Positions 6,588 through 33,731 of a stretch of 64,000 bases of DNA are shown piece by piece (position 1 is the first letter of the stretch; each line of letters begins with the position of its first letter). The notes under the pieces are model-generated. The model was not told where the DNA came from and searched no databases. It saw nothing but the letters and a program-made list of their open reading frames with translations. The DNA lies in NCBI RefSeq assembly GCF_008086545.1, contig NZ_CP043026.1, positions 868,001 to 932,000 on the forward strand, in the 5' to 3' direction. This stretch comes from Spiroplasma chinense (GTDB taxonomy: Bacteria > Bacillota_I > Bacilli_A > Mycoplasmatales > Mycoplasmataceae). The position numbers and the translations under genes are program-made.

Positions 6588-8699
6588 CTATTTAAAGTCT
6601 TTTTCTTCATAATATTCTAATATTTTATCTAAAAATTCTCTTTTTTCTTTATAAATCCTATTTTTCTCTTGTTCAAAGTTAATAATATCATTTCTCAATT
6701 TACTCACTAAGAACTGTGTCAACTTTTCTCTCTTCTCATAATTTTGATCATTATAACTTCTTTCTAGAGCAGAATCAATTACTTTTTTATAATTCTCCAT
6801 TGAGTAACACGCAAATAAAACTCTAAAGTTTTGATTATCTATAATACATAAATTAATTAAAAAATTAAAAGAATCATTATCAAATTTATAAATTTTATTA
6901 ATAATTTTGATAAGCGAGTCCTTTTTATTTAACAATACAATTTCATCAAAAGCTAAATTAAAATTAAAAGTTTTTAATAATGATTGCAATTTTCCTTCAT
7001 CGGAAGAAGAATAAGCAATATCCCTAAATCTACTATATATATAGTTCATAATTCATAATTCTTGCAGATTACTAGGACCCTCATTTTCTATAACCCTATT
7101 TAAAATACTAATAACATATTCTTTATTTAAAGAGAATATAAATTTTGTAATATTAAAAGTAATTTTTTCTAAATGATGTACTTTAATTTGAATTTCCACA
7201 TAGGTCATAAATTTTTTTTCTGATCCAAAATAAAGTTTGTCACTATATTTGTTTAATAATATCGCTATATCATCAGATACTTTTAATACTTCATTACAAT
7301 TTAATGAGGACTCAATATATTCTTGATTTTCTTTTAACACCTCAAACAAAACCTTGTAATCATTTGCAAAATCTTCTATTTTATCCAATTTCAAATAAAC
7401 ATTTTTCAAATCTTTATGTCATGAAGGATTAATGTAAAATTCAAAATTTTGAAGTTTTGTTATTGAGTTTCTTAGTGGTTCATCTTTAAAATTAGAATAA
7501 AATGACTGTTTATAAAGTAAAGTATCTGAAAAAATAACAAATTTATCAATAATTTGATAAAAATTATTATCTTTTTTTTCAGAAATTTTACTTTTGAATT
7601 TCTTTGCATTTTCATCCATTGGCACATTTTCTTTCCCATCCATATATAATCAATTTATAGACAATAATGATGGGTGATTTAATATCAAAAAGTATAATTC
7701 ATTATCATAAACTTGTAAAAAATTTATGTCGAAAAGATCATTTGAAACAAATTCAAACTTCCCGTCATACTCATCAAAAAAACTATTCAATTTTTCTAAA
7801 ATTAATATAATATCTCTAAAATTAGCAAAATAATTTATAAGAAGATTAAAATTACTTATAGTAACATTTCAATTTAATGTTCTTTCACAATGCAAAATTT
7901 CTCATAGTTTTTTTTGATTATTATTGTATTTACTATCATTAATTATTTTTCTTAAAATTTCGTTTTTTTCTTTTTTATTATATTTTAAATAATAAAAACA
8001 ATCAAAATATTTACCAAACTCAATTTCATTTTTATCTCTTCTATCAAATTGCTCAATATCCATAAGTGTTATACTTTTTTTATTACTAATTAATTTTAAC
8101 TTATCGAAATATAAAATAAAATCAGTCAAAAATTTGTATTGTTCTTCGGTTTTTATTCTATTTAAGTCTTCAATAACAAAATATAAATCACTTTTTGAAA
8201 AAGCCTTTTTTAATTTTATTTTTTCTAAAGAATAATTTGTAATTGGCTTTAAATTCCATAGGGAAAAAACTAATATATAAAAAATAATAAAAAAAATAAT
8301 TAAAAATGAAATAGCAAAACCTAAAGTAAAGTTTAGTTTAAAACCTACATAATTATTTTTGCTAACAAGAATACCTAAGGCAACCGAAAATAATACGGGG
8401 GCAAGAATTGAAAGAAAAGTATTTAAAAAAGCCCTTAACTTTATCAAAAAAGGCCCCCCTCCATATGTGGCAATTACACACCTTCAACTTAACCATTTAT
8501 TTCTTTTGAGATTAACTAATATAGTTTCAATAATAGAATCCTTGTCATTCACAGCATTTAATTCAACTTTTAAAAAATCTTTATTTTTTTTAAAAAATTC
8601 ATCTTTTAGATAGGTCTTTCCTGCACCATAATTTCCAGATAAGCAAATTCTTTCATAGTTGTTCGTTTTATTCTCAAAATCTTCCATTTTTATATTCAT
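6588..8699 (-). CDS. KAP-family-like membrane-associated P-loop NTPase
   Basis: 703 residues. Walker A GNYGAGKT is at 22-29. Two hydrophobic helices follow at roughly 98-118 and 125-150, then LYFVIEDLNRI (about 176-186), which corresponds to the KAP-type Walker B (hhhhDDLDR) with E-D and N substitutions. Transmembrane helices inserted between Walker A and B are the defining feature of KAP NTPases, whose bacterial members often sit in defence islands. The remaining 500 residues are helical with no recognised domain. ATG 8699 follows AAAGGAAA. The gene runs through many TGA (Trp) codons. It is probably cotranscribed with the 244-residue gene downstream. Its substrate is unknown. Confidence 0.7.
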
Positions 8700-24283: not shown

Positions 24284-25756
24284 CTATTTTTTAACTTTTT
24301 CTGATTCTTTTTTAGATTTTTCTATTTTAGGTTTTTTCTCATTATTTTCTTTTCTGTTTTGAATTGAACCAATTCAACTAAATACTCCTAAATTATCATG
24401 TTTGGGCAATAAAAGGTTTAGAATTATTCCCACAAATGTTGCTAGGAATAATCCTGTTATTGTAAATGATTTTCCAATCATAATTACACTATCAGTTACT
24501 CCCATTCCTACTCCAATTGCTACAACTAAACTTATAATAATTAAGTTTCTTGCATCTCTAAAGTCTGTTTTATTATCAATTAATATTTTTATACCATTAG
24601 AACTTATCATTCCAAATAACATTATACTGATTCCACCCATTACTGGTTTTGGAATCATTAATATAAGCTGATTAATTGGTGCTACAAAACTCATAATAAG
24701 TGCCATAACCGCTGCAAGTCCAGTAACTCAAACACTGGCAACTTTTGTAATTGACACAACACTTGTGTTTTCAGCATAAGTTGCGTTTGCAGGTCCTCCA
24801 ATTGCACCAGCTAAACTCATAGCAACTCCATCGGCAAATAAAGTTCTACTAATCCCAGGGTCTTTTACAAAATCTTTATTTGTCATATTTCCAATATTGA
24901 TATGATCTCCTAAGTGTTCTACCATTGTAACAATTGAAATTGGTACAATTGCAAGTGCTGCTGGACCAATAGAACTAGGTTTAACATCTCATATTTTCTT
25001 GAAACTTGGATATCAGCTTCAATCTTTTGTATTTGTTATTAAACTTGTGTCTACAAGTTTAATATCTGTTCCACTTAAAGAAAAGTGCAGAACTAAAGTT
25101 AATACATACCCTATCATTAAAGCTACTAAAATTGGAATAACTTTAAAGAATGATTTTGCTTTTAGCATACAAATTGCAGCGGACAAGAATGTCACAAAAG
25201 CTATTATTATTGCTAAATATTGTGGGTAATTTAAAGCTGGGTCTGTTGATTTTTCATAAATGATCCCAGAATTTGATAAAGCACTTTTAATTGCACTAAG
25301 TCCAATAATCATAACAATTGGACCAACAATTATTGGTGAGAAGGTTTTTTTAATTCATTGCACACCTGTGAAGTGAATTAAGACCCCTACAAGCATATAA
25401 ACTACTCCAACCAAGAATATACCTATAAAGATAGCATTTCCTCAGCCATAGCCCCCTGCTTGAGTTGAGAACCCTATTCCTAAGATGCTCATGTAACTAA
25501 AACTACTTCCCAAATAAATTGGTACTTTTGCAGCTGTTAAAGCTATATAAATTAGTGTTCCAATTCCAGAACAAAACAATGCCATAGAGATGTTGATAAC
25601 TTCAGTTCCAGCATTTTGGTTAATAACCATTGGTACAAGCACTGTTGCTCCAAACATGGCAAAGACATGTTGCAGAGAAAGTACCATTCATTTACCTACA
25701 CTTTTAGGTCTCTCGTGAGGCTTAAGTATAAGTTCGATATTATTTTCGTTTTCCAT
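24284..25756 (-). CDS. Uracil permease (nucleobase:cation symporter 2 family)
   Basis: 490 residues with about 12-14 membrane helices; imports uracil, or possibly xanthine, with protons. Family signatures are LQHVFAMFGATVLVP near residue 25, the TM8 segment VPISIVTMVEHLGDHINIGN and the TM10 segment GPANATYAENTSVVSIT. The Glu-His in MVEHLGD and the Asn-Thr-x-Tyr-x-Glu-Asn pattern fit UraA/PyrP rather than xanthine carriers. A short basic C-terminal tail (KKPKIEKSKKESEKVKK) is extra. ATG 25756 follows AAAGGA. Expression is probably controlled by the leader peptide and terminator immediately upstream, as for pyrimidine genes. Confidence 0.88.
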
Positions 25757-25789
25757 AATACAAATCCTTTCTGATTCATTATTTTGCAT

Positions 25790-25820
25790 AAAAAAAATCA
25801 ATTACAAAAGTAATTGATTT
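25790..25820 (-). terminator. Leader attenuator of the uracil permease gene
   Basis: A perfect 11-bp stem (25795-25805 with 25810-25820) is followed on the minus strand by eight U. It sits between a translated leader and the permease. The leader stop codon (25820-25822) touches the 5' base of the stem, so a ribosome finishing the leader would block the hairpin. Confidence 0.75.
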
Positions 25821-25915
25821 TAAATAATGAATAATGAATAAAAATCGAAAAATGAAGGACAGCACCCTTGGTACTCTGTTAATTTTTCAGTTTTGATCGC
25901 TCAAATTTTATTCAT
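25820..25915 (-). CDS. 31-residue leader peptide of the uracil permease gene
   Basis: ATG 25915 is preceded by AGAGGG (near 25919-25925) at good spacing. The frame runs 31 codons, one of them TGA for Trp. The last third, ending SFFDFYSLFII, is encoded by U-rich codons directly before the attenuator stem. This is the arrangement of the enterobacterial pyrBI leader: at low UTP the polymerase pauses in the U-rich stretch, the ribosome catches up, and the terminator cannot form. Regulation by UTP is inferred from the layout; the peptide itself shows no similarity I can name. Confidence 0.6.
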
Positions 25916-25940
25916 ATTTCCCTCTTTTTTCTTAATAATG

Positions 25941-25946
25941 ATTATA
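25941..25946 (-). promoter_or_regulatory. Extended -10 box of the uracil permease leader
   Basis: On the minus strand it reads TATGTATAAT (TG extended -10). Transcription would start near 25934, giving a leader of about 180 nt before the permease ATG. Confidence 0.55.
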
Positions 25947-28335: not shown

Positions 28336-28435
28336 TTCTTTTTCTCCCTTTGTTTTATTTTAAATTAAATTTGAAATAAAATTAGTAATATAAAGAGAAA
28401 ATGTAAAATTAATATATAAGAAATGAGTGATGTTT

Positions 28436-29083
28436 ATGGAAAAAGAGTTAGCAATAAGATTTGCTCGTTCAAAAGCAAATGAGTCAATATACAATTTATC
28501 AAAATTTGAACATTTAAATATGACCTTTCCCGAAACCGAAACAATTTTGGCAGGAATTACTTTAGATTATGTCGATAAAGAAGAGGCTTTAATTATAATT
28601 AACCTTAAAAGAGCATGAACATTGATTCTTAATAAAAATTTTAAGGAATTAAACATAGATTTTCTTAAGGAAATAAATATGATTATTGCAAAGGATATAG
28701 CTGTTTTTCCAGGAGAATTTAGAAATACGCCTTCAAATGTAGCTGGTGTAAACCATAATATAAATCCACTTTCAGAAAAGGAAATTATTAGTAAATTTGA
28801 AACACTTAACAAAATGGAAGACAAAATTGAAATGATCATTGAGTTAATACCTTTTTTAATTACTAATCAATTATTTTGAGATGGAAACAAAAGAACTGCT
28901 TTTGTTTTTGCAAATAGTATCTTAATAGCTTTAGGTATAGGAGTTCTTACAATTCCAGAATCTAAATATATAGAATTTGCCTATGCTCTAAATAATTTTT
29001 ACAACAAAGACTCTGAAGAAAACAAGATTTTATTGTCTTATCTTTTAAGAGAACAAATTCAAAGAGTACCAAAAAACGACTAG
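28436..29083 (+). CDS. Fic-family protein with altered catalytic motif
   Basis: 215 residues. Fic fold features are visible: PGEFRNTPSNVAG (about 92-104, the substrate/flap region) and QLFWDGNKRTAFVFAN (145-160), corresponding to the Fic motif H-P-F-x-(D/E)-G-N-(G/K)-R. The catalytic His is replaced by Gln145 and the Pro by Leu, while D-G-N-K-R is intact. Fic proteins transfer AMP or other phosphate groups; without His this one may be inactive, use another chemistry or bind nucleotide only. ATG 28436 follows GAGTGA; ATG 28430 is an alternative. It is divergent from the 541-residue gene and ends in its own terminator. Confidence 0.8.
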
Positions 29084-32444: not shown

Positions 32445-32503
32445 CTCCTATGTATAGTTATAATGATAAAAAAACATTATCATTATAATGAAAAGCATAG
32501 GAG
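32445..32503 (+). promoter_or_regulatory. Inverted repeat that can bury the transposase RBS
   Basis: CTCCTATG (32445-32452) pairs with CATAGGAG (32496-32503), and inside it TTATAATGATAA (32458-32469) pairs with 32477-32488. The right outer arm overlaps the orfA ribosome-binding site GGAGG. A TATAAT at 32439-32444 would start RNA near 32451 and omit most of the left arm, so only read-through RNA from outside would be translationally silenced. Confidence 0.6.
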
Positions 32504-32511
32504 GTTTTTTT

Positions 32512-32859
32512 ATGGCAAACAAAAAAGGTAATAAATCAAATATTTTAACCCCAGAACAAAGAAAAAGACTTGTAAATGATCATTTTAAAAAAGATTTAAG
32601 TTGAAGAGAATTGTCAATCAAATATAATGTTTCATATTCCGCTGCAAGGCAAACTTGTATTAGATTTGAAAACGAGGGAGAAGCTAGTTTTGAAGTTAAG
32701 AGTGGTAACAGTTCTAATCACACAAATATTAGAGTTAATAGTGTAGATCCCAGAGATAAACAAATTGCACAATTACTTAAAAGAAATAAGGAACTTGAAA
32801 TGGAGAACGAAATCATAAAAAAGTTCAAGGAATTTACAAAGAATCAAAAGACAAAGTAA
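32512..32859 (+). CDS. IS3-family OrfA (helix-turn-helix)
   Basis: 115 residues. Starts at ATG 32512, 7 nt after GGAGGT. The N-terminal helix-turn-helix (SNILTPEQRKRLVNDHF... SWRELSIKYNVSYSAARQTC) binds the element ends. The C-terminal leucine-zipper-like helix (IAQLLKRNKELEMENEIIKK) dimerises. It ends in the region where orfB begins. The slippery AAAAAAG at 32817-32823 allows -1 frameshifting to the full transposase. Confidence 0.88.
32817..32823 (+). other. Programmed -1 frameshift site of the IS element
   Basis: A AAA AAG in the orfA frame (ATA AAA AAG) is the consensus slippery heptamer used by IS3-family elements. The -1 frame is open from here to the orfB stop. Confidence 0.8.
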
Positions 32860-33731
32860 CGTTAAATTCCTATTATGTTTTTATCGATGAAAACAGGAAA
32901 TATTATCCTGTGTATTTGATGTGCAGAATTTTTAAAATTACAGAATCAAGTTATTATAGATGAATAAAACGCGGCAAAAAAATATACAAAGTTAAGTTCA
33001 ATTGAACACTCGCAAAAAAGATTTTAAAAATTTATAGAAAAAACATGGGAATGTATGGGGCTCCAAGAATTACTATTGATTTATTCAATAAATATGGAGT
33101 TAGAGCTTCGGAGAAGAAAGTTTGAAGATATATGTCAATTCTTTCAATAAAATCTTTTGTAAGAAAGAAACGTTCTTACAGTGTTCCTAAAGAAAAGAAA
33201 AACACAAAAAGCGGAATACCAAATATAGTTGACAGAAAATGAGGTTTATATGGTCCCAATGAATTATTTGTAACTGATGTGAGTTACATACCATATGGAA
33301 ATCACAAATTTGCTTATTTAAGTGTCATAAAAGATGCTTATAGCGGAATGATTGTTGCATGACACATTTCACTAAAAAATGACCTTATGATTTGAAAAAA
33401 TACATTAAAAAAATTTGAAAAGGTTAGACCTAAAACTCAAATTATTATGCATTCTGATAATGGGTTTCAATACACATCATTATTTATGGCTGAATATTCA
33501 AAAAATAACAACATCATACAATCATGCTCTAGAGCAGGAAACTCTTTAGATAACGCTATGTGTGAAACGTTCTTTTCTTCTTTGAAAACAGAAAGACTTC
33601 ACCATATTAAATTAAATAATCATTATGAAGTTTATGATCAAATAGATAATTATATTAATTATTATAATAATTATAGAATAACAATTAAACACAGAGCTAC
33701 TCCAACTTCAATTTGGAATACATATAATTAA
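32823..33731 (+). CDS. IS3-family OrfB, DDE transposase
   Basis: About 302 residues, entered by -1 frameshifting from orfA. An N-terminal HTH_21-type region (MGMYGAPRITIDLFNKYGV) is followed by the rve integrase core. The catalytic triad is in FVTDVSYIP, MHSDNGFQYTS and ETFFSSLKTE. The C-terminal YINYYNNYRITIKHRATPTSI is typical of the family. Several TGA codons encode Trp. All three acidic residues are present and the frame is intact, so the element could be active. Confidence 0.88.

Follow-up and report, generated by a model that had tools for sequence, protein, structure and literature searches.

Sensing of UTP through translation of a leader is known mainly from enterobacteria and pseudomonads. 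In the Escherichia coli pyrL leader, UTP is sensed by way of the speed, fast or slow, at which the leader is transcribed, and transcription terminates when UTP is abundant (PMC10135430). A ribosome close to a terminator represses it in E. coli, and amino-acid attenuators hold their leader stop codon more than 20 nt away from the terminator (PMC4824070). Leader translation also decides termination in the amino-acid leader-peptide attenuators of the trpL and pheL type. A different solution is the PyrR RNA attenuator (RF00515), which acts on pyrimidine genes in species of the same family as the organism studied here, depends on a protein and contains no leader ORF. Here we analyse a 64,000-nucleotide stretch of the genome of the wall-less bacterium Spiroplasma chinense (the window) in which a uracil permease gene is preceded by a leader that we consider, with a probability of roughly 0.7, to be a pyrBI-like, UTP-responsive and translation-coupled attenuator of uracil uptake. 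If so, an attenuator of the pyrBI kind would be conserved in a new lineage and would act on a new target gene.

The permease gene (24284..25756, minus strand, with its ATG at 25756) is intact under code 4 and encodes an NCS2-family, UraA-like protein of 490 amino acids. The protein matches Pfam Xan_ur_permease, lies above the cut-off of the NCBIfam ncs2 model and has E. coli UraA as its best PDB match (E 4e-63). Uracil is its probable substrate, an assignment that rests on similarity to UraA, and the NCBIfam uracil permease model is the best equivalog, at a score below its own curated cut-off.

A first-pass annotation had listed a -10 element, a ribosome-binding site, a 31-codon leader ORF with a TGA codon and a terminator ahead of the permease, and all of these parts are found, on the minus strand throughout. 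The -10 element (25941..25946) is a perfect TATAAT; it had been described as extended, but it is not canonically so, having TG rather than TGn directly before it. Transcription is predicted to start at about A25933-G25931, and in many leaders of the same genus a conserved 5' end, AAGAAAA, is found 7 bases past the -10. The leader Shine-Dalgarno sequence (SD), AGAGGG (25925-25920), lies inside a segment, GAAAAAAGAGGGA (25919..25931), that forms the 5' arm of a long-range helix. The leader ORF (25820..25915) comprises 31 codons and a TAA stop and encodes MNKIWAIKTEKLTEYQGCCPSFFDFYSLFII; its codon 5 is TGA, which is read as Trp in the Mycoplasma/Spiroplasma code (code 4). The 3' arm of the helix, TCCTTCATTTTTC (25847..25859), lies at the start of a U-rich tract (25822..25852) that encodes FFDFYSLFII and that, from its U content, is a candidate region for UTP-dependent pausing. 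The leader stop codon sits on the stem base of an intrinsic terminator, the putative attenuator (25790..25821), whose stem (25821-25810 / 25805-25794) has 11-12 bp and a loop of 4. The eight U that had been noted with the stem are present at 25797-25790, but about half of them belong to the stem itself. The permease SD, AAAGGA, occupies 25765..25770. Only one of 200 shuffles folds better than the leader (z -3.7), and neither in this fold nor in the upstream regions of relatives did we find a conserved or shared antiterminator. Within 25773-25852 of the window (minus strand), the segment AATAATGAATC downstream of the terminator has its complement in the repeat TTCATTATTCATTATT before the terminator, a pairing that could lengthen the terminator hairpin and that was not seen in the other leaders looked at.

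This arrangement resembles E. coli pyrL-pyrBI in that a pyrimidine gene is preceded by a short, SD-led leader ORF with a U-rich tract before an intrinsic terminator, and in that a ribosome in the leader would, judging here by the anatomy, be positioned to block that terminator. The leader stop is only a few nt from the stem, which matches the distance at which terminators are repressed by ribosomes in E. coli (PMC4824070). There are also differences: the stop lies on the stem base, whereas the pyrL ORF runs through the terminator and ends beyond it; the attenuator stands on an uptake gene and not on synthesis; and TGA is a sense codon. The initial description of exactly the coupling seen in pyrBI was thus too strong, although a UTP attenuator as such is supported by the conserved layout described below. 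Compared with attenuators of the trpL and pheL type, the leader has no conserved run of control codons, and its stop is too close to the terminator.

Ribosome-polymerase coupling is known in Mycoplasma pneumoniae. The layout, its conservation and the distribution of PyrR are read from sequence; leader translation, pausing, UTP as the signal and timing by SD occlusion are what we infer in proposing the following course of events. Transcription would start a short distance before the leader SD. When UTP is plentiful, RNA polymerase would move quickly through the U-rich distal leader, the distal segment would pair with the 5' end and hide the SD before any ribosome has loaded, the terminator would fold and the permease would go untranscribed. 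With scarce UTP, the polymerase would be slow in the U-rich tract, and a ribosome could load first and follow it closely; halting at the leader stop codon, which lies on the stem of the terminator, this ribosome would keep the stem from folding, the polymerase would read through and uracil import would rise. In relatives the pyrB operon would be controlled by the same device, and relatives in the same genus that possess PyrR lack it at the permease.

The set of permease orthologues was drawn from 60 family genomes and 298 genomes of the order, with missing loci added. Counted from the upstream regions, 33 of the 42 permease-bearing family genomes have an SD-led ORF whose end falls on or within an intrinsic terminator, including one (G013, leader L015) in which the leader start is altered. 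These ORFs are 20-43 codons long and occur in five genera of the family (g1, g2, g3, g5 and g8), and L026 adds a leader from another family. In most relatives the stop codon ends about 2-9 nt inside the terminator stem; in some, the ORF runs into or through the terminator, as in E. coli. The first-pass annotation had made its reading depend on conservation of the leader ORF, and ORF, stop position and terminator are indeed kept while the sequences diverge: the deep clades that we compared have neither leader peptide nor RNA sequence in common, and it is the plan that they share. Genomes without an intact leader either have a plain promoter (G005, G011 and G016), a degenerate terminator or none (G007 and G012), or a broken permease gene (G068, G070, G071 and G072). 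In G013 the leader start codon has changed from ATG to ATT, an in-frame ATG lies four codons further downstream, and the permease SD is weakened to AATGAG, which is possibly a sign of decay.

Short open frames are common in AT-rich DNA under code 4, and the leader could in principle be an unregulated terminator that happens to follow a meaningless short frame. In dinucleotide shuffles of 17 representative leaders, the probability of an open frame with a stop at most 5 codons from that observed was 0.02-0.18 for each single leader. Taken over all 17, the product is about 1e-18, a figure in which independence is overstated because the representatives are related. The layout is moreover kept over genera and recurs at pyrB, and when 444 kb of the S. 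chinense genome (a sample of 19 stretches with 298 genes) was scanned, only two genes had it, the permease and one other. The layout is not chance; we give an accidental origin a negligible probability, and consider the conserved leader-terminator layout strongly supported. The second case in the sample, an SD-led ORF ending at a terminator on the minus strand of L061 (7304-7399 in strand coordinates), precedes a small gene of unknown function.

U makes up 0.53 of the second half of the S. chinense leader ORF and 0.22 of the first half, and over the 17 representatives the means are 0.48 and 0.30 respectively (p = 1.5e-5). The enrichment is not significant at free (synonymous) third codon positions (p = 0.34), so selection on U in the RNA and selection on the amino acids are not separated by these data. 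This last result, and a peptide end rich in Phe, Leu and Ile, would suit a translation-coupled attenuator that senses a signal other than UTP, be it general translation capacity or the charging of a tRNA for the Phe, Ile or Leu codons that the distal half contains. However, the number of Phe codons ranges from 1 to 7 and no codon run is common to the deep clades, while both gene contexts, permease and pyrB, concern pyrimidine supply. Against tRNA charging in particular, the stop codon lies on the terminator, where a finishing ribosome blocks it, whereas in attenuators that respond to charging more than 20 nt separate the two (PMC4824070). We regard such a signal as unlikely, and a response of the permease leader to UTP as likely. 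The distal part of the peptide is kept within genera (SFQFSKLFIFN in one, ILFDIFNILQN in another), as might be expected if the nascent leader peptide were itself the sensor and stalled the ribosome. Yet no peptide motif is common to the genera, and the conservation within them coincides with the RNA arm and the U tract, so we consider peptide-dependent stalling very improbable.

The RNA arm just mentioned belongs to a pairing between the 5' end of the transcript, including the SD, and a segment in the distal half of the ORF. For the S. chinense pair, GAAAAAAGAGGGA/TCCTTCATTTTTC, 12 of the 13 bases of the 5' arm (25919-25931) pair with 25859-25847, and the helix is part of the minimum free energy (MFE) structure. 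Corresponding arms in other leaders are GAAAAGTTTG(G)AGAAA/TTTCTCAAACTTTTC (L009), GAAAATAAGTGG/CCCACTTATTTTT (L028) and GAATGTTGAGGTAT/ATATCTTTAATATTC (L020); L023, L025 and L032 have no good helix. Family-wide, duplexes between each 5' arm and its cognate ORF average -12.5 kcal/mol, against -9.4 (sd 0.57) when partners are permuted. None of 20,000 permutations was as low, the result holds when the set is cut down to representatives of the deep clades, and a duplex with an arm swapped in from another species is on average about 3 kcal/mol weaker. Shuffles of single leaders give weak duplex results one by one (p = 0.07 for the S. chinense leader). Within genus g8, thirteen helix columns retain standard pairs despite changes; in L039, for instance, adjacent pairs have gone from G-U to A-U and from G-C to G-U with both pairs kept. 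The sole break of the helix in this genus is in L033, a copy in which both permease and leader are broken. The comparisons suggest that the helix arms co-evolve across clades; arms from different clades could not be aligned with one another.

Predicted accessibility of the SD is 0.56 before the distal half has been made and 0.27 afterwards, and composition-matched shuffles reach 0.31 (p = 0.10). Sequestration of the SD in the MFE structure was considered as proof of specific selection and rejected, since these shuffles explain most of the drop: SD occlusion is partly, and as such mostly, a by-product of U-rich composition. We put forward tentatively, as the less probable side of the matter, that the U-rich tract has two jobs, slowing the polymerase at low UTP and, once made, closing the leader start by pairing with the SD. 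The attenuator would then be a timed gate for ribosome loading, and this gate would have arisen separately in mollicutes and in the pyrBI leaders of enterobacteria.

A comparable match is present in E. coli MG1655 pyrL (L092, 1400-1534), where the leader SD CGGGAGGA likewise has a complement, UCUUCCCG, within the U tract. In enterobacteria more widely, 80 pyrB loci (L093-L172) yielded 62 distinct leaders upstream of pyrB, most of them with complementarity between SD and U-rich pause tract. Leaders of the Serratia type are altered on both sides, CGGGAGGAA/TTCTTCCCG as against CAGGAGAAA/TTTCTCCTG. We treat the enterobacterial match as a lead only, because a purine SD will readily find a match in a pyrimidine tract and because the cognate-versus-permuted test is weak here (p = 0.008, from related sequences). 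No pairing between SD and U tract is mentioned in the titles or abstracts of the literature retrieved for pyrBI, Shine-Dalgarno and UTP. By eye, neither the S. chinense leader nor those of its relatives show similarity to enterobacterial pyrL, and the mollicute and enterobacterial leaders look convergent.

That PyrR-type control had not been recognised at this locus agrees with its absence from the genome: S. chinense has neither a PyrR RNA site detectable with Rfam nor a PyrR protein orthologue. A PyrR site in the permease leader was considered and rejected, as Rfam gives no PyrR match there. There are six matches to the phosphoribosyltransferase fold in the genome, four of which were scanned (three HGPRT-like, one Upp), and the other two look, by length and sequence, like Apt and PRPP synthetase. 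With Upp, and HGPRT-like proteins besides, imported uracil should be convertible to UMP. A riboswitch, or an attenuator bound by PyrR or an unknown binder, with the ORF incidental, might still act through the SD-covering long-range helix, which a ligand could stabilise. However, at a permissive threshold Rfam yields only chance-level matches, no PyrR gene is available, the sequence, bulges and mismatches of the helix are not conserved between clades, and the leader ORF is maintained. We consider control of this type quite improbable.

PyrR RNA sites were detected in G005 and G016 (two each), G011, G081 and G031, and weakly in G061, and clear PyrR orthologues only in G016, G005, G011, G081 and G031. 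The RNA sites lie ahead of pyrR-pyrB-pyrC-carA or pyrD-like genes (named by recognisable sequence and position). Within the genus of S. chinense, PyrR sites and protein are confined to G005, G016 and G011, which are exactly the species whose permease has a plain promoter. PyrR and the leader have nearly complementary distributions (Fisher p = 0.004, phylogeny ignored), and the three PyrR species may represent one evolutionary event. The exception is G081, which has PyrR as well as a leader, with a helix that is not convincing.

A PyrB search identified operons in six relatives without PyrR (G073, G026, G067, G065, G034 and G021). Upstream of each is a leader ORF of 39-53 codons with its stop within a terminator, and U makes up 0.45-0.52 of the second half against 0.23-0.33 of the first. 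The arrangement is close to that of pyrL-pyrBI, and we take these pyrB leaders to be its probable true counterpart. That leader-terminator units precede the pyrB operons of PyrR-less relatives strengthens the pyrimidine link of the permease leader. Two further species without PyrR, G007 and G012, have a pyrD-pyrB-pyrC-carA-carB-pyrF operon and have lost the permease leader. Upstream of pyrD on the minus strand, L083 (G007, at 8248) has a frame of 90 codons and L084 (G012, at 8390) one of 115, each ending in a long-looped, terminator-like repeat; they are possibly long versions of the same attenuator.

If the UTP-attenuator reading is true, two unrelated pyrimidine controls, leader attenuator and PyrR, replace each other, and organisms with small genomes that are thought poor in regulation would control both uptake and synthesis without a regulator. 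The textbook pyrBI model would also gain a testable step, in which the U tract closes the leader SD. In a literature search whose scope took in few subscription papers, no paper linked Spiroplasma with such an attenuator, and the match for Mollicutes was a general review. Elsewhere in the window, on the plus strand, 28427-29083 encodes a protein with a motif, WDGNKRTAF, that resembles a Fic domain, and two ORFs at 32488-33731, one helix-turn-helix and one integrase-like, resemble an IS3-type transposase pair.
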